The translations under genes and the position numbers were made by a program. The notes under the pieces were generated by a model that was not told the origin of the DNA, ran no database searches, and worked only from the letters and a program-made list of their open reading frames with translations. From a virus, in IMG/VR virus record IMGVR_UViG_3300044612_002263, positions 1 through 20,919 of that record: a stretch of DNA of 20,919 bases; one strand, 5' to 3'. Below, one piece after another: positions 210-20,370 of this stretch (the first letter of the stretch is position 1; each line of letters starts with the position of its first letter).

Positions 210-2999
210 ATGGCAAACGAGTGGGTTGTCAAGGTAACGGCCGATGTTAAGGGGGTACTCGATGCGTCGCGGCTGATTGGCCAGCAAGGCAAGCAGGCGG
301 GGGAGCAGTTCAAGCAAGGTTTTGCCGGCAGTGACCAGACGATCACCGGGTTGCGTGGCCGGCTGAATGAGCTGAACCAGACCCTGGAGAAAGCAAAGAT
401 CGGATCCAAGGAGTTTGCGGCTGCACAGCGGGAAATTGCGCAAACACAGCGGCAAGTAGACAGCGCCTTAGCAGGTGGCACTACGGCGATGAACACCTTT
501 GGCGCGGCGGTGAAAGGTGTCGCGCTGCAGGCAACCGCTTTTCTGGGACTTTATGAAGCGATTACATTTGTCGGCAAAGCTGTTGTTGAGCTTGACAATG
601 CAGGTGCAGCGGTTCGCACGCTGGGGTCAAATTCTAAAGAATTAAGCTCGGCATTACTTGATCTTTCAAGCGAGCTGGGCAACAACGTAAGCCAAGGTGA
701 ACTCCTAAAATCATCTTACGATATTGTTTCAAGTGGATTTAGTGATACAACGGAAGTCGTTGATATTCTCAAGGCATCTGTGCTAGGTGCAACGGGGGGA
801 TTTGCCGAGCTTGGCGATGTTACGAAAACGGTTTCAGGCATTATCAACGCCTATGGCTTGACCTCAAAAGACGCTCAGGGAATTGTTGATACCCTTGTGC
901 AAACTCAAAACGATGGTGTCATTACTGTTAGGCAATTAAGTGACAACATAGGGAATGTTGCATCTATTGCAGCAGCCGCTGGGATACCTTTTAAGGAGCT
1001 AAGCGCTGCAATCTCAACAGCAACCCTAAAGGGCGTCCCGGTTGAGCAGACATTTACCGGTTTACTCCAGGCGATTACCTCAATCCTCAAGCCAAGCGAA
1101 GAGGCTAAGACCCTGGCAAAAAGCCTAGGCCTTAGCTTTGACCTGGCATCCCTGCAGGTCAAAGGCTTTGGCGGTTTCCTTGCAGATGTTCAGGCTAAGA
1201 CCGGAGGGGCGGCCGACAAAATCGCCATCTTACTAGGTTCAGTTGAAGCACAAACTGCGATACAACCACTGCTTAACGACCAACTCAAGACATATAATGA
1301 GCAGCTTGATAATCAAAACAAGAAAAGCGGCCAAGCTGCGGAAGCTAGCAAGATTGCGACCGAAACGATAGCCGGTGGATTTAACCAACTTGTCAATGCC
1401 ACCAAAAACCTTGCAGGAACTGTCAATACAGCACTTCCTGGCGCATCACAGCGATTTTCAGACCTTGCTAAAGCTATATCTATTACAGCAAAATTAGCAG
1501 AAAAAGCAGGCTCAAACATCAGCAAAGCATTAGCAACACCCATCGGCAACGATTTGCAAAAGTTGCTAGACCCGTCCCGGGGGTTGTCCGAGCTTTCAAA
1601 AATACCTGGCGTTGATAAGCTGCTCAGCGGCAACAAGGAATTAACCACTGAACTTGGCAAACAAGGCGAAACGCAAGCGCAGATAAACGCAAGAGTTAGG
1701 GAGCAGGAGGCGATTGCAGGGCAGATCCTTGGCAACAAGCGAAGCCAAAACTTAGAAGATATAGTCGCCAATGAAAACGCGAAAAATCTAACAGCAGCCT
1801 ACAGTCAGCTTTCTCAGGCTCAACTCCAAGGCCAAGTACAGGTTGGTCAAGCTGGTATCAACCTAGGTCAGGCGCTGATCGGACTAGAGGAGTCACGCTA
1901 TGGCATTATCCGCAGTCGCCAAGATTACGAACTGCAACAAATGCGAAACATGGGCGCAAGTGAACAGCAAATTGCGGAACAAAGGCGGCAAAACTTTGAA
2001 ATAGAAATAGCAGCTATAAATTTTAAGTATCAAGCATTGCTTCAGCAGCAAGAGCTAATGGGAAATCTGCTTACCCTGCAGCAGGAGATGGCCAGATTGG
2101 AGGCTGAGCAAGCGGTTAGTGCTGCACAAATAAACGTAGAAAAAGCAAAATTAAATGAAGAGAAAGCTAGACTAGCAGGCGATGAAACAAATACGGAAAT
2201 CGCAGAAAAGGATTTAGAGATTGCCAGGCTTGATTTGGATACGGCTAAAGCCAAGCTGGATACATTATCCCAAATTCAGCCAATAGTGACGGAAACGGCT
2301 GCCGCCAACGACGAAGCGGCACGCAATGCAATCAAGGCGCAAGCTGCTGGAGTTGGTTTACAACAAGCCCTTGATGGCACGTTCCAAAAGGTCAAGGACA
2401 TTGGTGATCAGTTTTCTAACGTTCAAGACAAAACTAAGCGTGCTGCTCGATTAAGCGGATTCCTTGAGGAAGCCATGAGAGAAACGTCCTCTGCCGCCAA
2501 CGCAACCAGGACTCAGACCGCAGGCATGGCCGCCAACATGTCGAAAGCCGCTGGCTCGGCCCAGGCGTTCTACGATTCACTGAAAGGGGCTTCCGGTCTG
2601 CCCTCAGCCAGGTTTACCGGTGGCCCGGTGGACGCCGGCCAGACCTACCGCATCAATGACGGCCCGAGCGGGATGAGCCTGGGGCAGGAATCGTTCCTGT
2701 CGGCATCCGGGGCGCTCAGCTTGATCAACCGACCCGCAAACAGCCTCTGGATGGCGCCATCAAAGGGGACCGTGATCCCCGCTGCCGTGACCAGCCGACT
2801 GAAGGAATCCGGGGCCCTTGGCGGTGCTGGCGTGATGCGGGTGGGATCTGACCCGGCAATGGCCCATCTTGCGGCGGCGGTTGGAAACCTGAGCCAGGAG
2901 GTAGCTGAGCTGAGGCGTAAAGCGTGGAACGTTGGTGTCAATGTGCGAGGCGATGGATCCGGCCTGAAGCTGCAGCAGACCATGGCGCGGATGCGTTGA
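210..2999 (+). CDS. Phage tail tape measure protein
   Basis: This 929-residue protein sets tail length and sits in the tail lumen before DNA ejection. Residues about 1-95 are helical and polar. About 96-128 is a hydrophobic stretch (FLGLYEAITFVGKAVVEL). About 135-350 matches the PhageMin_Tail / TIGR01760 tape-measure domain, recognisable from the segments with SSGFSDTTEVVDILKAS and the NAYGL...VQTQNDG...NIGNVASIAA pattern. About 527-693 is a long coiled coil rich in Q, E, K and A. The C-terminus is Gly/Pro/Ser-rich and then helical. The start ATG has AGGA about 10 bases upstream and follows the preceding stop by one base. The gene is a composition mosaic: both ends are GC-rich while about 570-2480 is clearly AT-richer. 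The call is secure from domain, length and place. Confidence 0.93.
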   Translation: MANEWVVKVTADVKGVLDASRLIGQQGKQAGEQFKQGFAGSDQTITGLRGRLNELNQTLEKAKIGSKEFAAAQREIAQTQRQVDSALAGGTTAMNTFGAAVKGVALQATAFLGLYEAITFVGKAVVELDNAGAAVRTLGSNSKELSSALLDLSSELGNNVSQGELLKSSYDIVSSGFSDTTEVVDILKASVLGATGGFAELGDVTKTVSGIINAYGLTSKDAQGIVDTLVQTQNDGVITVRQLSDNIGNVASIAAAAGIPFKELSAAISTATLKGVPVEQTFTGLLQAITSILKPSEEAKTLAKSLGLSFDLASLQVKGFGGFLADVQAKTGGAADKIAILLGSVEAQTAIQPLLNDQLKTYNEQLDNQNKKSGQAAEASKIATETIAGGFNQLVNATKNLAGTVNTALPGASQRFSDLAKAISITAKLAEKAGSNISKALATPIGNDLQKLLDPSRGLSELSKIPGVDKLLSGNKELTTELGKQGETQAQINARVREQEAIAGQILGNKRSQNLEDIVANENAKNLTAAYSQLSQAQLQGQVQVGQAGINLGQALIGLEESRYGIIRSRQDYELQQMRNMGASEQQIAEQRRQNFEIEIAAINFKYQALLQQQELMGNLLTLQQEMARLEAEQAVSAAQINVEKAKLNEEKARLAGDETNTEIAEKDLEIARLDLDTAKAKLDTLSQIQPIVTETAAANDEAARNAIKAQAAGVGLQQALDGTFQKVKDIGDQFSNVQDKTKRAARLSGFLEEAMRETSSAANATRTQTAGMAANMSKAAGSAQAFYDSLKGASGLPSARFTGGPVDAGQTYRINDGPSGMSLGQESFLSASGALSLINRPANSLWMAPSKGTVIPAAVTSRLKESGALGGAGVMRVGSDPAMAHLAAAVGNLSQEVAELRRKAWNVGVNVRGDGSGLKLQQTMARMR

Positions 3000-15129: not shown

Positions 15130-16053
15130 ATGGCGTCCCGTCGCCTATTCGACGGCGCGCAGGTCGAACTAGGTCTGTTGCCGATTGTCGGTGCTGTTGC
15201 GCCGCTAAGTGGCATTACCGGCACGGCCTCTGGCACGATCAGCTTCACCGGGACTGCGACTGGCACTGTTACTAACTCCGGAGCAGCTAGCGGCACGCTG
15301 CTACTCACGGGATCTGCTACGGCAACCGCCCTAGTCACCGGGATTGCCAGTGGCACGCTGGAACTAACTGGTGACGCAACAGGCGTCATCGGCAGCGCTC
15401 CGATCACCGCCACCACTTCGGGGACACTGCCCCTTGGTGGGTCGGCAGCGGGTCAGGTAGTTGTATCCGGATCTGCCGCTGGCATCTTGCCCCTTGAGGG
15501 GGGCGCCACTGGTGCCGTCGCAGTATCTGCGGTGGGCAGTGGCACGCTGCCCCTGTCTGGCGCCGCTACGGGCGTCGTCGGCACCGTTCCGATCACTGCC
15601 ACGGCAGCAGGGACACTGCCGCTCGCTAGTACCGCTACGGGCAAGGTCAACGTCGATGGCGCCGCCAGCGGGACGCTGCCGCTCGATGGTGAGGCGACCG
15701 CTTCTGTCCGCGTGTCCGGCGTTGCCACTGGCATCTTGCCACTTGGCGGGACTGGCGTAGCAACGGCTTTGATCAGCGCGATTGCCAGCGGCACCTTACC
15801 GCTCACTGGTAACGCGACCGGCACGGTAGCTACGGCAATCATATCCGGGGTAGCGGCGGGAGATTTGCCCCTTGACGGGTCGGCAACAGGCGCAGTCCGC
15901 GTTATCGGATTGGCGGCTGGTGTCTTTGTGGTCACCGGCACGGCAACGGCGATCGGGCCAGTTCAGTTTGCCACTCGCTTTGCCTTCCCTGGCGATCCAG
16001 CCAATGGCGGCAAACTGAGTATATCACGCCGTGGCGGGCACATCGTTAGGTGA
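15130..16053 (+). CDS. Twelve-repeat beta-solenoid-like virion protein
   Basis: A 307-residue protein almost wholly built of a repeat. Residues 31 to about 280 contain about twelve units of 20 or 23 residues, consensus GxASGTLPLTGxATGxVxVS, each made of two 10-residue halves with alternating small and hydrophobic residues. Such periodicity predicts a beta-solenoid or stacked beta-hairpin shaft. Residues 1-30 are a non-repeat start (SRRLFDGAQVELGLLP). The basic end includes FPGDPANGGKLSISRRG. There are almost no charges in the repeats and no cysteine. A short TAAGGT separates it from the previous gene and AAGGT serves as ribosome-binding site. A spike or fibre shaft is the most likely role; the structure is inferred, not known. 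Confidence 0.72.
   Translation: MASRRLFDGAQVELGLLPIVGAVAPLSGITGTASGTISFTGTATGTVTNSGAASGTLLLTGSATATALVTGIASGTLELTGDATGVIGSAPITATTSGTLPLGGSAAGQVVVSGSAAGILPLEGGATGAVAVSAVGSGTLPLSGAATGVVGTVPITATAAGTLPLASTATGKVNVDGAASGTLPLDGEATASVRVSGVATGILPLGGTGVATALISAIASGTLPLTGNATGTVATAIISGVAAGDLPLDGSATGAVRVIGLAAGVFVVTGTATAIGPVQFATRFAFPGDPANGGKLSISRRGGHIVR
15220..15969 (+). repeat. Tandem 60/69-bp coding repeats, about 12 copies
   Basis: Repeat lengths in residues, in order, are 20, 20, 23, 20, 20, 23, 20, 20, 20, 23, 20 and about 20. The 23-residue units carry a three-residue insert (GVIGSAPIT, GVVGTVPIT, GTVATAIIS). The first two long units are exactly 189 bases apart and nearly identical, so a 63-residue block was probably duplicated. 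DNA copies are otherwise diverged. Confidence 0.8.
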
Positions 16054-16387: not shown

Positions 16388-16406
16388 ATGAGCACTTGTA
16401 TGATCT

Positions 16407-16416
16407 GGAAAGCTGG
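16407..16416 (+). promoter_or_regulatory. GGAAAGCT element, copy 5
   Basis: GGAAAGCTGG lies 44 bases before the preferred start of the first lysis-cassette gene. A longer frame from 16388 would place the element inside coding DNA, but the other copies argue that this stretch is a leader. Confidence 0.4.
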
Positions 16417-16450
16417 AACAAATCGACACAGCTTCCACAGGCTGTTGATC

Positions 16451-16585
16451 ATGGATCTGAAAGATTTTATCGGCGTGGCAGTGCCGATGACGGTGCTGCA
16501 CCTAGTCTTATTCCTGCCGGCGTGGTGGGTGTTGACTGAGGTCCCCGCGCTTAGAGGCTGGATGGCAGGGAGGCTGAAGCCGTGA
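16451..16585 (+). CDS. 44-residue membrane protein, lysis cassette
   Basis: A short protein with one clear membrane segment, IGVAVPMTVLHLVLFLPAWW, and a short basic end (LRGWMAGRLKP). The ATG at 16451 is preferred. A longer form from 16388, directly after the previous stop, would add 21 residues of unlikely sequence containing the GGAAAGCT element. The stop overlaps the next start as GTGA. Position before two further membrane proteins and a wall enzyme suggests a holin, antiholin or small spanin-like role. No family recognised. Confidence 0.6.
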   Translation: MDLKDFIGVAVPMTVLHLVLFLPAWWVLTEVPALRGWMAGRLKP

Positions 16586-17118
16586 GTGAGGATCTAAGCC
16601 AAGGCGGTCAGCACGTCCCTTTGAGCGATATGGCCGGCTTGTTTAACATGCTAAATCGAGCATGTGGCGAATTATCAGACGTAAAAAAAGAACTTAAGGA
16701 TGTTACCTCTATGCAAGGTGACCTAAGGCTTTTATGCAGCGGACAAGACCGTATGGAGCGAACAATATCAGAAATTCAAAGAGATCATAAAGATGCGATT
16801 AAAAATATGAACGAACACGATAAAGATATTATCAAGCTTTCGGGTAGCGTTGAATTACAGGCAAAAGATATTCAACAATTACAGGACACTGTTAAAGAAA
16901 AGGGATGGGCCAAAGATACCAAGGAACTACAGGAGACTGTTAAAGGTTTACAGAATGATACGAAAGGTATTTTAATTAAAATGGCCGCAGTTGCGGGCGG
17001 CGTAAGCGTGGTGATCTGGGTAGTAACGCAGGGCATTGCGATGTACGACAAGCTGCCCCATGGTTCAGGCAAGGTGGGATCTTTTGTGCCCCCACCACTG
17101 GTGAGGTGGAGGGGGTGA
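16582..17118 (+). CDS. Coiled-coil protein with C-terminal membrane anchor
   Basis: A 178-residue protein starting at GTG with GGGAGG about 9 bases upstream and a GTGA overlap with the previous stop. Residues about 30-130 are a charged coiled coil (KKELKDVTSMQGDLRLL, ISEIQRDHKDAIKNMNEHDK, QQLQDTVKEK). About 132-155 form one membrane helix (MAAVAGGVSVVIWVVTQGIA), followed by a short Pro/Gly-rich tail. The build resembles XhlA-type or other coiled-coil lysis accessory proteins, though longer than XhlA. The coiled-coil DNA is AT-rich while both ends are GC-rich. It probably works with the neighbouring holin candidates; the exact role is inferred. Confidence 0.65.
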   Translation: MSEDLSQGGQHVPLSDMAGLFNMLNRACGELSDVKKELKDVTSMQGDLRLLCSGQDRMERTISEIQRDHKDAIKNMNEHDKDIIKLSGSVELQAKDIQQLQDTVKEKGWAKDTKELQETVKGLQNDTKGILIKMAAVAGGVSVVIWVVTQGIAMYDKLPHGSGKVGSFVPPPLVRWRG

Positions 17119-17327
17119 CCCGCTACATAAGCTGGTGTCTTGGGTTTGCCGGTTTCTGCCTACTGGCTGGCGCAGGAGTTGGGGTTCTTGACTGGTGGAA
17201 TTGCACGAAACATGCTGGCGGCAAAGCCTGTGCTGAAAGCCGCACCGTTGCAATCGTTGCCCTTACCGGTGCAGCCACCACAGCGCTAGGCATTGCCGTG
17301 CCAAACCGCACCCACGGCCCGAAATGA
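17115..17327 (+). CDS. Two-helix membrane protein, holin candidate
   Basis: A 70-residue protein with two hydrophobic segments, YISWCLGFAGFCLLAGAGVG and VAIVALTGAATTALGIAVP, separated by a short loop with two cysteines (WNCTKHAGGKACAE). A basic end follows. The size and topology fit a class II holin. The GTG at 17115 gives a GTGA overlap with the previous gene; a GTG at 17106 is possible but nearer its own GGAGG. Third in a row of coupled lysis-type genes. The call rests on topology and place, not on family similarity. Confidence 0.6.
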   Translation: MTRYISWCLGFAGFCLLAGAGVGVLDWWNCTKHAGGKACAESRTVAIVALTGAATTALGIAVPNRTHGPK

Positions 17328-17332
17328 TGATC

Positions 17333-17623
17333 CTAGGCGGGCTGAAGCTGAAACGACCGTAGTAACACTTCCTGCCATGGCACAAGGTCTCTGGGTGACG
17401 TGTCTTCCCTAGTCATAATCACCGGCTCAGAATTGATAATTTGCGCCTTGGTGTCGCTGAGTATCTTTACCGTCACCCCAACGACCCCTCGATGGATGCA
17501 CGGGGCGTTGAGCATCGTGCCACCAGGCAGAAGGTCAAAGGCACGGCCCATGATGCCAACATCAGACCTCCCTGGCACGGGAAACACCCGCTGAAGATCC
17601 CAGGAGAAAGCGGCGGTGGGCAC
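17333..17623 (-). CDS. Possible antisense small gene in the lysis cassette
   Basis: The 353-base gap 17328-17680 has no convincing + strand gene, but the - strand holds a 96-residue frame starting at GTG. Its sequence looks protein-like: FSWDLQRVFPVPGRSDVGI, then RAFDLLPGGTMLNAPCI, VVGVTVKILSDTKAQIINS and a final PWQEVLLRSFQLQPA. An in-frame stop lies shortly upstream, so it does not continue into the - strand operon. No ribosome-binding site is visible. I do not recognise it. It may be an independently transcribed cargo gene, or chance. A + strand alternative (17400-17594) looks less protein-like. Confidence 0.42.
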   Translation of the reverse strand: MPTAAFSWDLQRVFPVPGRSDVGIMGRAFDLLPGGTMLNAPCIHRGVVGVTVKILSDTKAQIINSEPVIMTREDTSPRDLVPWQEVLLRSFQLQPA

Positions 17624-17655
17624 TATTGCCGTCTGGCGTCTGGGTTAGTTTACCG

Positions 17656-17665
17656 GGAAAGCTGG
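17656..17665 (+). promoter_or_regulatory. GGAAAGCT element, copy 6
   Basis: GGAAAGCTGG lies 25-28 bases before the start of the 51-residue gene that leads into the wall enzyme. It is the last + strand copy. Confidence 0.42.
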
Positions 17666-17680
17666 CTCAGGTGCCAGGTA

Positions 17681-17836
17681 ATGATGACGTGCGGGTTGAT
17701 CCGCCTAATCTGCGAAGAGCCGCAGGATCCCCCGACGCGGGCGCGGTTTGTTGACGTGCCGCCATGGCGTGCCGGCATTGCGACGTTGCTGCTGCGAATC
17801 CGGGGCTGGCGTGTTGTGTCTCGGTGGCCGCTGTGA
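17681..17836 (+). CDS. 51-residue protein coupled to the wall enzyme
   Basis: A short frame with two start codons in a row (ATGATG at 17681) and AGGT just upstream. It ends in a GTGA overlap with the enzyme gene, so it may act mainly as a leader that couples translation. The protein has two cysteines (TCGLIRLICEE) and a basic end (LLLRIRGWRVVSRWPL) with mild amphipathic character. A longer open frame reaches back to 17441, but the GGAAAGCT element and the ATGATG start favour the short form. No family is recognised. Confidence 0.55.
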   Translation: MMTCGLIRLICEEPQDPPTRARFVDVPPWRAGIATLLLRIRGWRVVSRWPL

Positions 17837-18372
17837 AGACACCGGTCTGGCCGCCAGGGATGGTGGGCCCTAGGATCCGGCCTAGCCTGCGACCTGGTGA
17901 TCACCATCTGATCGCCAATGACATTGCCGAAACCATGACAGGGTGGACGCATGACGGGCGTCGGTTGTGGCAAATTCTATGCCTTTGTCGTGGCCAGGGG
18001 ATGGAGACTGAATGGCGTCGGACCGGTGAGGACACCCCGCCGGGGCTTTACCTGATCGGCAAGATTTACCGAGACTACGAAGAGGATCCACGCCCAAGGC
18101 TTACCGCCGATCGTCGCGCCTACGGCTGGTACAGCTTTGATATGGAAGGACAGGAGGGCCAGGAGGGCCCAACAAGCAAGCCGTATCGAGACGGCATCAT
18201 GGTGCATGGTGGTGGCAGTGCCTGCGGCTGGCCTGGAGCGTGGGCGCCAAGGCAGGACCTGTACCCAACCCTTGGCTGCATCCGGCTGCATAACATTGAC
18301 CTGCGCGACCGCATCCTTCCGTTAACGCAACTGGGTCGGATCTGGGTATCAGTGCTGCAGGAGGCGGGCTAG
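17833..18372 (+). CDS. YkuD-fold L,D-transpeptidase-like wall enzyme
   Basis: A 179-residue protein with the active-site pattern of the YkuD (L,D-transpeptidase) family: His125 in MVHGGGSACGW and Cys149/Arg151 in YPTLGCIRLHN, with TPPGLYLIGKI at about 68-78 as the usual leading strand. Members join or cleave peptidoglycan stem peptides using the cysteine. The GTG start overlaps the previous stop as GTGA, giving a start just before the conserved RPGDHHLIANDIAETMTGW region; longer frames only add improbable sequence. No signal peptide is present, so export would need a holin, as for a classical endolysin. It sits after holin candidates, where the lysin is expected. I recall related proteins in picocyanobacterial genomes. 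Lysis versus wall remodelling is not decided. Confidence 0.82.
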   Translation: MKTPVWPPGMVGPRIRPSLRPGDHHLIANDIAETMTGWTHDGRRLWQILCLCRGQGMETEWRRTGEDTPPGLYLIGKIYRDYEEDPRPRLTADRRAYGWYSFDMEGQEGQEGPTSKPYRDGIMVHGGGSACGWPGAWAPRQDLYPTLGCIRLHNIDLRDRILPLTQLGRIWVSVLQEAG

Positions 18373-18586
18373 ACGCCAGGGTCTGGCAGCAGAGGGGTCC
18401 TACGGCTGGCCCGGCAACACCAGTGGTCGCCAGGGTGATCCCGTGCTCTCGGCATAGGCGCCTCATCTTGTGCCAAGCGTCGGCTCCAGAGTACGCCTCA
18501 ACGCAATGGACACCAGCGCAGATACGCCAGACCAATCGACCGCCTATTGTGATGACCTCCTGGACTGGAACCACTGGATCAATCAT
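18197..18586 (-). CDS. Early-region protein convergent with the wall enzyme gene
   Basis: A 129-residue frame. The first 70 residues look real: QEVITIGGRLVWRICAGV, HCVEAYSGADAWHKMRRLCR, EHGITLATTGVAG. The last about 58 residues lie antisense to the end of the L,D-transpeptidase gene and are Cys/Ala/Pro-rich without a natural pattern. Either the gene has a poorly constrained tail formed by the overlap, or a truncation has removed the original stop. Start uncertain: an in-frame CTG lies slightly upstream, and no clear ribosome-binding site precedes the ATG. It is the last gene of the - strand series. Confidence 0.45.
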   Translation of the reverse strand: MIDPVVPVQEVITIGGRLVWRICAGVHCVEAYSGADAWHKMRRLCREHGITLATTGVAGPAVGPLCCQTLASSPPPAALIPRSDPVALTEGCGRAGQCYAAGCSQGLGTGPALAPTLQASRRHCHHHAP

Positions 18587-18660: not shown

Positions 18661-18831
18661 TCACGGGTCCAGCTCGTCAGCGATGCGGAATAGCCGATCC
18701 GGCGTCAATGGTTCAGGCGACTTGAGCAGCGCCAGGGCCCTGAAGCCCTGGGCAACGGCCTCGTTCAGGGCTGGGCTATCCTTGAACGCAGCCAGGATTG
18801 CCAGGGTGTCGGGGCTCTTGGGGGTGCTCAA
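18661..18831 (-). CDS. 56-residue early protein with TTG start
   Basis: A short frame that begins TTG inside the previous stop (TTGA overlap), with AGGA about 5 bases upstream. The protein is helical (LAILAAFKDSPALNEAVAQG, then LALLKSPEPLTPDRLFRIAD) and ends ELDP. No ATG or GTG alternative lies in the N-terminal part. The same kind of overlap joins the genes before it, which supports the unusual start. No known family; a small DNA-binding or regulatory protein would fit, but nothing in the sequence demonstrates this. Confidence 0.5.
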   Translation of the reverse strand: MSTPKSPDTLAILAAFKDSPALNEAVAQGFRALALLKSPEPLTPDRLFRIADELDP

Positions 18832-19296: not shown

Positions 19297-20370
19297 GGCC
19301 TGGGGCGCTGGCACTTGGGCGGATTGCGCGGCCCGATTCAGTCGCTGCAGGTGTTTTGAGGCACGGTTAAGCGTGGCGTACCAATCGTATTTTTCCATTT
19401 CATACAGAAAATCGGCAATTTCCTCTATGCCACCTGCTAACAGCACAATGTTTCCTGAAGTTTCATCATCTGTCGCTACATCCCCAGCCAGCCGCTCACT
19501 CACTGGCCCCAGCTCCGCCACCTCCCCAGCCCCGGCCTCCACTCCAACGCCATACACCGCTCTGGTCTGGCTGTCCCAGGGCCCAACCGCCGCCCGCTTG
19601 AGCACAGCCACGACCGTATCGATGGCGCTATGCCAGGCCTCACCCTCGGTCCCGCTATGGCCGCCTGAGTACGTGTGGCAGCCCTGGGCTAGGCGAATGG
19701 CGTCTAGGTATGTGGGGCCAGGCTCCGGCGCTGGCGGGGTGGCCAGGTTTTCCCCAGGCGCTGGAGCTGCGGCAGGGGGGTGCCCCCGGCGGGCAAGGAT
19801 GGCGCGGGCTTCACTCCATCCGTCTTCGACGCCCTCGCGCCATGCGCTGCGGTACTGCATCGCCATGGTCGTAGGGATGTTCGGCGGCTCAACTGGCAGC
19901 AGGTCCGCTGCACTCGGCGCTTCCCCCTTCTCCGGCGCCGGCGGGGTGGCGGGGGTGCCACAGCGAGTAAGGCGCTCGTTCATTCCCTGTTGGCACGCAG
20001 CCTTGGCATCGTCCACGGAATTGAACGCCGCGTACCAGTCCCCCCAGGGCGTCTCATCAACAGTTGGGCTATCGTATTCCTTCCAGCCTTTCCAAGTAAT
20101 AAGGAATCGACCGAACGGTGTTTCGGCAATGCAATGGTCGTATCTACACGCTTCGCTGGGTGGCATGTTATCGGTCCATTGAAGACGTGGCCCTTCCCTC
20201 TCCGGCTCAGCCTTCAGGGCGGCGCGCAATTCCTGAACAAGCTCCGGCGACAGGTAGACGGCGGTGCCGCGATTGGCTGCCTGCTGGAAGGTGTCCAGTG
20301 CGGCGCAAATGATGGGGGTGCTCATGGTTCTGGGTCGATGGGTAATTTGGATTTGATCGGGCATGGTCAT
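19279..20370 (-). CDS. Multi-domain early protein with Pro/Ala linkers
   Basis: A 363-residue protein whose ATG overlaps the previous stop as ATGA; ATGs at 20364 and 20325 are alternatives, and the last would give the plausible start MSTPIICAALDTF. Domains: about 16-50 helical (TFQQAANRGTAVYLSPELVQ); about 60-125 a small domain familiar from phage early regions (AETPFGRFLITWKGW ... WYAAFNSVDDAKAACQQG); linker ATPPAPEKG; about 165-200 helical (YRSAWREGVEDGWSEARAIL); linker PAAAPAPGENLATPPAPEPG; about 225-350 two further helical parts divided by VEAGAGEVAELG. It looks assembled from several formerly separate small proteins. Function unknown, probably host takeover or regulation. Confidence 0.68.
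   Translation of the reverse strand: MTMPDQIQITHRPRTMSTPIICAALDTFQQAANRGTAVYLSPELVQELRAALKAEPEREGPRLQWTDNMPPSEACRYDHCIAETPFGRFLITWKGWKEYDSPTVDETPWGDWYAAFNSVDDAKAACQQGMNERLTRCGTPATPPAPEKGEAPSAADLLPVEPPNIPTTMAMQYRSAWREGVEDGWSEARAILARRGHPPAAAPAPGENLATPPAPEPGPTYLDAIRLAQGCHTYSGGHSGTEGEAWHSAIDTVVAVLKRAAVGPWDSQTRAVYGVGVEAGAGEVAELGPVSERLAGDVATDDETSGNIVLLAGGIEEIADFLYEMEKYDWYATLNRASKHLQRLNRAAQSAQVPAPQAGEVEA
19723..19950 (-). repeat. Direct repeat coding the ATPPAPE linker
   Basis: A 21-base block at 19723-19743 recurs at 19930-19950 with one substitution. On the - strand both code ATPPAPE, followed by PG or KG, and mark the two domain borders of the multi-domain early protein. Near-exact DNA identity rather than just similar residues suggests recombination or recent copying. 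Confidence 0.65.

Follow-up and report, generated by a model that had tools for sequence, protein, structure and literature searches.

A YkuD-fold protein in the lysin locus of a cyanophage lineage, probably the peptide-cutting module of an endolysin

YkuD domains in phages and bacteria

Domains of the YkuD family occasionally appear in the lytic proteins of phages. In PhaLP, 10 entries for phage lytic proteins have YkuD as a catalytic domain (PMC8310338). A virome study from Yellowstone reports three YkuD domains among endolysin domains (PMC5017753), and a study of gut phages describes one bicatalytic protein with YkuD (PMC13284279). One cyanophage lysin that has been studied, PaV-LD, is an M23 endopeptidase (PMC9096620). 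No paper on a cyanophage YkuD endolysin was found in a search of open-licence papers.

Other enzymes with this fold differ in what they do to the cell wall. Csd6 is described as a carboxypeptidase only; relative to L,D-transpeptidases it has 8 extra residues in loop I and 12 in loop III, and its loop II forms no lid (Kim 2015, PMC4599014). DpaA carries Met133 where carboxypeptidases have Trp (Wang 2023, PMC10653827). ElsL is a leaderless, cytoplasmic YkuD carboxypeptidase (PMC8649774). Finally, Tlde1a is a toxic effector of bacterial competition that has both cutting and exchange activity (PMC9638812).

The DNA analyzed here is a stretch of viral sequence of 20,919 nucleotides, called the window below. 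It encodes a YkuD protein, P0001. In the best explanation, given a probability of roughly 0.6 on the basis of sequence comparison and a predicted model, P0001 is the peptide-cutting module of a cyanophage endolysin: a cysteine L,D-peptidase that would cut stem peptides or cross-links and whose lysozyme half has been lost.

The YkuD gene and its neighbors

The gene, its two catalytic codons and the frame just upstream of it are as follows.

17833..18372, plus strand: YkuD-fold enzyme P0001, 179 aa, proposed peptide-cutting lysin (from Pfam, alignment, predicted fold and dN/dS)
18205..18207, plus strand: codon for the catalytic histidine, His125, in HGGG; no variation across the 55 aligned rows
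18277..18279, plus strand: codon for the catalytic cysteine, Cys149, in TLGCIR; no variation across the 55 aligned rows
17681..17836, plus strand: conserved 51-aa open reading frame (ORF) with no assigned function (from mismatch pattern, dN/dS and synteny)

The reading frame of P0001 begins with a GTG at 17833 and ends with its stop codon at 18372. Pfam finds one family in the protein, YkuD (PF03734, E 7.3e-6; the score of 27.1 bits exceeds the cut-off, 23.4), and a PHROGs search gave no family for it. The HG...[ST]xGC[IV]R context of the catalytic residues is present; besides His125 and Cys149, residues G126, T146, G148 and R151 are unchanged throughout the alignment of P0001 with 54 relatives. 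Hydropathy shows no segment of the signal-peptide or transmembrane type, whereas L,D-transpeptidases are secreted or membrane-anchored. An earlier note, made from the letters of the window, had described a YkuD-type ORF with an HG...TLGCIR pattern at this place and no signal peptide; Pfam and the alignment bear out the first point and hydropathy the second.

The frame is not a chance one, since mismatches against the relatives L005 and L007 fall mostly on third positions, dN/dS is low (0.148 and 0.119, respectively, indicating purifying selection), and relatives number in the hundreds in IMG/VR and genomes. A longer version starting with ATG at 17764 (202 aa) was considered and set aside: third-position mismatches in 17600-17839 track the frame of the 51-aa ORF, and L007 has ATG where the window has GTG 17833. 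By these sequence comparisons, ATG 17764 is the less likely start and GTG 17833 the more likely one. The TGA of the 51-aa ORF overlaps this GTG (GTGA), and this small frame is also under purifying selection, with dN/dS of 0.168 and 0.201 against L005 and L007.

Three short proteins further upstream are candidates for holins or lysis accessories, a status assigned by hydropathy only.

17106..17327, plus strand: 73 aa, two hydrophobic segments; candidate holin
16582..17118, plus strand: 178 aa, a single hydrophobic segment close to residue 130; may be a holin or a lysis accessory
16388..16585, plus strand: 65 aa, a single hydrophobic segment; may be a holin

The first of these has a homologue upstream of a GH24-YkuD fusion in L037 (56% over 62 aa). 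Between 17400 and 17594 the sole PHROG hint is a holin/anti-holin at E 0.25, which was not used. A split muramidase upstream of P0001 was also considered and rejected; profiles for four glycosidase types matched nothing in the six frames of the window.

Several other features of the region were observed. Third-position mismatches in 17360-17599 agree equally well with a 96-aa minus-strand ORF (17333-17623) and with a plus-strand frame. Downstream of the lysin gene, the mismatch pattern of 18440-18559 fits a small minus-strand ORF (18386-18586), which is also present in G002, the contig of L006. The frame at 15130-16053 encodes a strongly repetitive protein (units like SGTLPL.G.ATG.V) without a Pfam match. 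The tape-measure ORF has 929 aa in the window (210-2999) against 1189 aa in G002, a close relative (46787-50356). In L086 (6517-6828) and L239, a small ORF lies directly downstream of YkuD and has hydrophobic stretches flanking a Cys-containing loop; by eye it resembles the holin candidate at 17106-17327.

Relatives and hosts

A search of 50,697 phage records for relatives of P0001 gave matches in three phages only (5 records), namely S-CBS4, S-CRM01 and B23, all of which are phages of Synechococcus. In IMG/VR, 353 places encode a relative in one scan, and 94 and 361 in two others, with overlap. Bacterial and archaeal genomes contain 47 matching loci, and all 47 belong to records titled as cyanobacteria, mostly Synechococcus and Cyanobium. 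The cyanobacterial phage lineage that had been proposed is supported. Host genomes also have YkuD proteins of their own with stronger YkuD matches (11 of 11 genomes searched).

Some of the genome copies look like prophages, because an ORF that by eye resembles the capsid ORF of the window lies near the YkuD gene in genome locus L086. Such an ORF, again by eye, also accompanies YkuD in the viral loci L229 and L247, and none was seen in the stretch of L090 that was examined. On one Vulcanococcus contig the same lysin gene occurs twice, about 56 kb apart (L092 and L093); this duplication perhaps represents two related prophages or an assembly effect.

Pairing of YkuD with glycosidases

In most relatives, the YkuD domain is accompanied by an enzyme of another kind. 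Architectures were counted with family-specific profiles at 138 distinct viral places, taken from the 80 best matches in each of the three IMG/VR scans, with identical 500-base contexts counted once. Fusion required the same open frame, places cut at the 5' end formed their own class, and L004 and the loci from L290 on were left out. YkuD and a glycosidase share one open frame at 86 of these places (GH73 at 46, GH24 at 28, GH19 at 6 and Phage_lysozyme2 at 6). The glycosidase is encoded by an adjacent gene at 14, none of the four types is found in the available flank at 36, and 2 are cut off. The corresponding counts for 46 genome places are 16 fused (GH24), 8 adjacent (Phage_lysozyme2), 21 with none and 1 cut off.

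Ten examples were compared with Pfam. YkuD was above the cut-off in all ten and stood alone in three. GH24 was above the cut-off in three and GH73 in one, GH19 was below it in one, and Phage_lysozyme2 was above it in L033 and below it in L048.

The three phages illustrate different arrangements. In S-CBS4, YkuD is the C-terminal half of gp063, a gene annotated as endolysin / N-acetylmuramidase, while the N-terminal half is a Glucosaminidase (GH73) according to Pfam. In B23, YkuD is N-terminal to a GH19-type domain that lies below the Pfam cut-off (E 0.0007). In S-CRM01 (L002), YkuD is g112, directly after the annotated endolysin g113; the label "fused GH24" given to this locus refers to a GH24 remnant in the same frame, and the record annotates g113 as a separate gene. 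Within L002 7210-8519, this remnant lies upstream of the g112 YkuD, and the end of g113 is the start of g112. The pair is perhaps a split or frameshifted GH24-YkuD lysin.

Since four types of glycosidase pair with one constant domain, and in both orders, the YkuD domain is best understood as a catalytic module of endolysins. P0001 itself can be regarded as such a module because its relatives are fused to or adjacent to glycosidases and because the S-CBS4 protein is annotated as an endolysin. Its gene occupies the same locus as the GH24-YkuD lysins of relatives, next to the holin candidates, so that the lysin position given in the earlier note holds. That note had also proposed a new lysin class. 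The presence of YkuD in the lysin locus stands; a class that simply replaces lysozymes does not, because most relatives pair YkuD with a glycosidase. Nor is the class new, as the S-CBS4 homologue has its endolysin annotation and YkuD is already listed among phage lytic domains in the entries of PhaLP (PMC8310338).

Two further observations concern the arrangement of these genes. A GH24 gene lies directly downstream of YkuD (about +500 to +680), the reverse of the fusion order, in L144, L150, L153, L156 and L163, and this order recurs in L165, L167, L173 and L175. In addition, some lysin ORFs begin with a mini-domain of about 50 residues (PHQLAAL..LD..LT.EQRQ.F...WRA.GSP), located before YkuD or before the lysozyme. 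Carriers include L033, L034, L036, L050, L071, L073, L079 and L082, and the protein of the window lacks it. A profile of the mini-domain finds 43 loci up to E 0.01, duplicates included, and Pfam names nothing there in the examples. It is possibly a wall-binding part.

Loss of the lysozyme half

The 51-aa ORF allows the lone and the fused genes to be compared. It lies directly upstream of the lone YkuD gene in the window and in L005-L007 (offset -152), and directly upstream of a GH24-YkuD fusion in 28 loci (offsets -689 to -776; first viral scan and genome scan taken together, duplicates of one phage included). Its stop codon overlaps the start of the lone YkuD gene in the window, L005 and L007, and the start of the fusion gene in L008, L018, L032 and L039. 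A junction script did not find this overlap in L013 and L062.

A maximum-likelihood tree of 142 rows groups the window with L005 and L007 (98/92), and this group nests within one of 27 rows that includes 18 GH24 fusions (96/90). Because the upstream gene is shared and the lone forms nest among GH24 fusions, the lone YkuD of the window's clade most likely arose by loss of the lysozyme half, as far as gene order and tree can tell. Across the tree, the lone label, which also covers rows whose lysozyme is encoded by a neighboring gene, requires at least 12 changes by starred branches. Most likely, there were several origins of lone forms, or several gains of lysozymes.

Search for another lysin

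Another lysin was sought in a close relative, the contig G002 (66,886 bases). Stretches of G002 align with the window at 74-97% identity, and among these the longer have 78-93%. Window positions 18661-18804 and 19515-19718 map to the two ends of G002; since both ends thus fall within the window, the contig would be near-complete.

Pfam was run on 98 chosen ORFs of G002, a set that excluded five ORFs (three crossing piece ends and two short ones). No glycosidase, amidase or peptidase was among the 25 families listed (down to E 5e-4), which comprised terminase, portal-type, capsid, tape measure, SSB, Rad52 and others. A second set of 121 further ORFs, excluding two crossing ones, gave YkuD, FGE-sulfatase and two HNH families. 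When open stretches of 40 or more codons from G002 and the window were searched with the four glycosidase-type profiles, no match appeared even at E 10. The expectation that no conventional lysin is encoded elsewhere therefore agrees with what was recognized in this near-complete 66.9-kb relative by Pfam on 219 ORFs and by the profiles.

The lysozyme family PF00959 was searched across 29 records and matched in two. In the contig of L246 the match is right beside the YkuD domain. In the contig of L069 it is a separate GH24 gene at 25.1 kb, about 24 kb from a lone YkuD near the contig start. A relocated or unrecognized lysin partner is thus possible in the window's phage. For G026, the contig of L239, 25 of 41 Pfam families were listed and host-like genes are also present; no claim on the absence of a lysin is made for it. 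As a side observation, G002 (L292-L295) encodes an FGE-sulfatase-type protein (E 5e-48), and a similar one was seen by eye at G014 28452-29168.

These searches bear on the alternative that survives best, in which P0001 is an accessory or a vestige and the main lysin is a protein that the libraries fail to recognize or that lies outside the available sequence. The related L069 phage provides a precedent, the window is a 20.9-kb fragment, and the five ORFs left out of the first G002 set could matter, three of them crossing boundaries and two being short. However, G002 is syntenic with the window (mostly 82-93% identity) and spans its ends, its 219 ORFs show no other lysin by Pfam, the four family-specific profiles are silent there and in the window, and the YkuD gene is under strong purifying selection. 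This alternative is a serious competitor but rather unlikely.

Fold, loops and likely chemistry

The structure of P0001 was predicted with AlphaFold2 from its alignment (pLDDT 89.1). The prediction has a YkuD fold, with Z 13.0 and rmsd 2.1 over 112 residues to 4a1i. In Foldseek, places 1 to 5 are chains of the L,D-carboxypeptidases Pgp2, Bd1075 and Csd6 (E 1.1e-5 to 3.5e-5); B. subtilis YkuD is next at 4.7e-5, and DpaA has rank 17. Among the families listed, VIA-align gives Z 13.6 for Csd6 (rmsd 3.4, 143 residues), 13.2 for Pgp2 (2.9, 136), 13.0 for YkuD (2.1, 112), 12.6 for Bd1075 (3.5, 135) and 11.3 for Tlde1a (3.0-3.1, 132-134); differences of up to 1 among the first four are treated as ties. 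Because the transpeptidase B. subtilis YkuD ties with Csd6 and Pgp2, a hydrolase cannot be told from a transferase by the fold alone. Sequence searches of solved structures gave no match up to E 10 for P0001 alone, and for profile A2 eight matches at E 0.63-0.90, none of them a YkuD protein.

In a profile alignment with ten host YkuD proteins (E 5.7e-6), loop I is 8 and loop III 12 residues longer in the phage family (12 by count). Loop II, measured from Gly to Trp, spans 28 residues in the phage family against 35 in eight of the ten host proteins, and is thus 7 shorter; the anchor is lacking or doubled in the other two. Loop III is likewise long in L318, one of the host proteins, and its length is thus no absolute criterion. 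The distance from His to Cys is 24 residues in P0001 against 16 to 20 in the ten host proteins, which also exceeds the stricter spacing HXX14-17-(S/T)HGC quoted in the Tlde1a paper (PMC9638812).

P0001 therefore lacks the short loops I and III that go with a two-entrance groove in L,D-transpeptidases, and has long ones of the Csd6/Pgp2 type, by the numbers given for Csd6 (PMC4599014). It differs from that type in two respects. The Trp two residues before the catalytic His is replaced by Met123 (Met in at least 90% of the 55 rows), and the C-terminal NTF2-like domain is absent, since the catalytic domain is followed directly by the end of P0001 at residue 179. From the model and the loops we infer that P0001 would be a hydrolytic L,D-peptidase. 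The earlier concern that YkuD enzymes normally make cross-links is weakened by these hydrolase-like loops. Since Met123 replaces the Trp of the Csd6 pocket, as in DpaA, the residue cleaved off may not be D-Ala.

The same data can be read in other ways. P0001 could be a transferase that exchanges D-Ala for other D-amino acids or glycine, or makes 3-3 links, and so weakens the wall or blocks cross-linking in the manner of Tlde1a, which has the same fold (Z 11.3) and both activities and is toxic (PMC9638812). The tie with B. subtilis YkuD would fit this as well. But consistent pairing with wall-degrading glycosidases speaks for cutting, and a shorter loop II with longer loops I and III is the pattern described for L,D-carboxypeptidases; transferase action is accordingly judged unlikely.

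Alternatively, Met123, at the position of Met133 in DpaA (PMC10653827), and the presence of DpaA among the Foldseek matches could indicate a DpaA-like amidase. Such an enzyme would detach wall-bound or outer-membrane-bound proteins or polymers, as a last step of lysis in place of spanins. This would leave the repeated pairing with glycosidases in one polypeptide unexplained. These cyanobacteria are not known to have a Braun-type lipoprotein in covalent linkage, and the amidase reading seems improbable. A cytoplasmic enzyme of wall recycling or remodeling during infection, leaderless like ElsL (PMC8649774), can hardly be expected in a lysin locus downstream of holin candidates, with relatives fused to lysozymes.

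Proposed mechanism

Under the preferred explanation of P0001 as a peptide-cutting endolysin module, the ancestral form in this lineage would have been a leaderless two-enzyme protein of GH24 lysozyme and YkuD, as architecture, synteny and tree suggest. The lysozyme half was then most likely lost in the window's clade, and the sequences show the YkuD half still in the lysin locus and under purifying selection. P0001 would accumulate in the cytoplasm until a holin, perhaps one of the candidates at 16388-17327, lets it through the inner membrane. Judging from the family, Cys149 and His125 would act on wall peptides at the bond that meso-diaminopimelate makes through its L-carboxyl group. The fold and loops suggest that water would be the main acceptor for the acyl-enzyme; stem peptides and cross-links, whether 4-3 or 3-3, would then be cut, not made. 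In most relatives the glycosidase would cut glycan strands simultaneously; in the window's phage the YkuD enzyme would act alone or with an unrecognized partner. A pure carboxypeptidase would trim stems without lysis, and endopeptidase action on cross-links is assumed here.

A bolder version is offered tentatively, with the odds somewhat against it. The lone YkuD-fold cysteine L,D-endopeptidase would be the only endolysin of the window's clade, and cutting peptide cross-links by L,D-transpeptidase chemistry, with water as the acceptor, would suffice to burst picocyanobacteria. The glycosidase would then be the exchangeable part of these lysins and YkuD the constant and decisive one.

Comparison with known systems

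A fold known mainly for building cross-links thus occurs in hundreds of lysin genes of freshwater cyanophages, with four glycosidase partners. If P0001 is hydrolytic, a cysteine L,D-peptidase would be added to the kinds of lysin, as a cross-linking fold turned to opening the wall. Genes with and without the lysozyme form a natural deletion series, with which one can test which of the two enzymes in such a lysin is the effective one. The family may also provide a tool against cyanobacterial walls.

YkuD as a rare phage lytic domain is already known from the literature cited above, and P0001 is a new variant, not a new class. New are the size of the family, the group of hosts, the four partner enzymes, a lone form that arose through loss of the lysozyme, and the hydrolase-like loops. 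The 10 YkuD entries of PhaLP (PMC8310338) compare with hundreds of loci here, lone forms among them.

P0001 shares with B. subtilis YkuD (1Y7M) and PF03734 the profile match, the predicted fold (Z about 13) and the His/Cys context. It differs in its longer His-Cys spacing, longer loops I and III and lack of a signal peptide, and in having relatives fused to phage lysozymes.

Csd6, Pgp2 and Bd1075 resemble P0001 in their best Foldseek ranks, their VIA-align Z of 12.6-13.6 and their long loops I and III. In contrast to them, P0001 is phage-encoded and leaderless, has no NTF2-like or N-terminal domain, and carries Met for Trp in the D-Ala pocket.

Tlde1a, a type VI secretion system (T6SS) effector, is similar in its fold and extended loops I and III, and is likewise turned against the cell wall (PMC9638812). 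Unlike P0001, it is delivered by secretion and is not part of an endolysin; it also has a capping subdomain.

The endolysin gp063 of S-CBS4 (GH73-YkuD) has a YkuD domain 56% identical to P0001 but keeps its N-terminal glucosaminidase.
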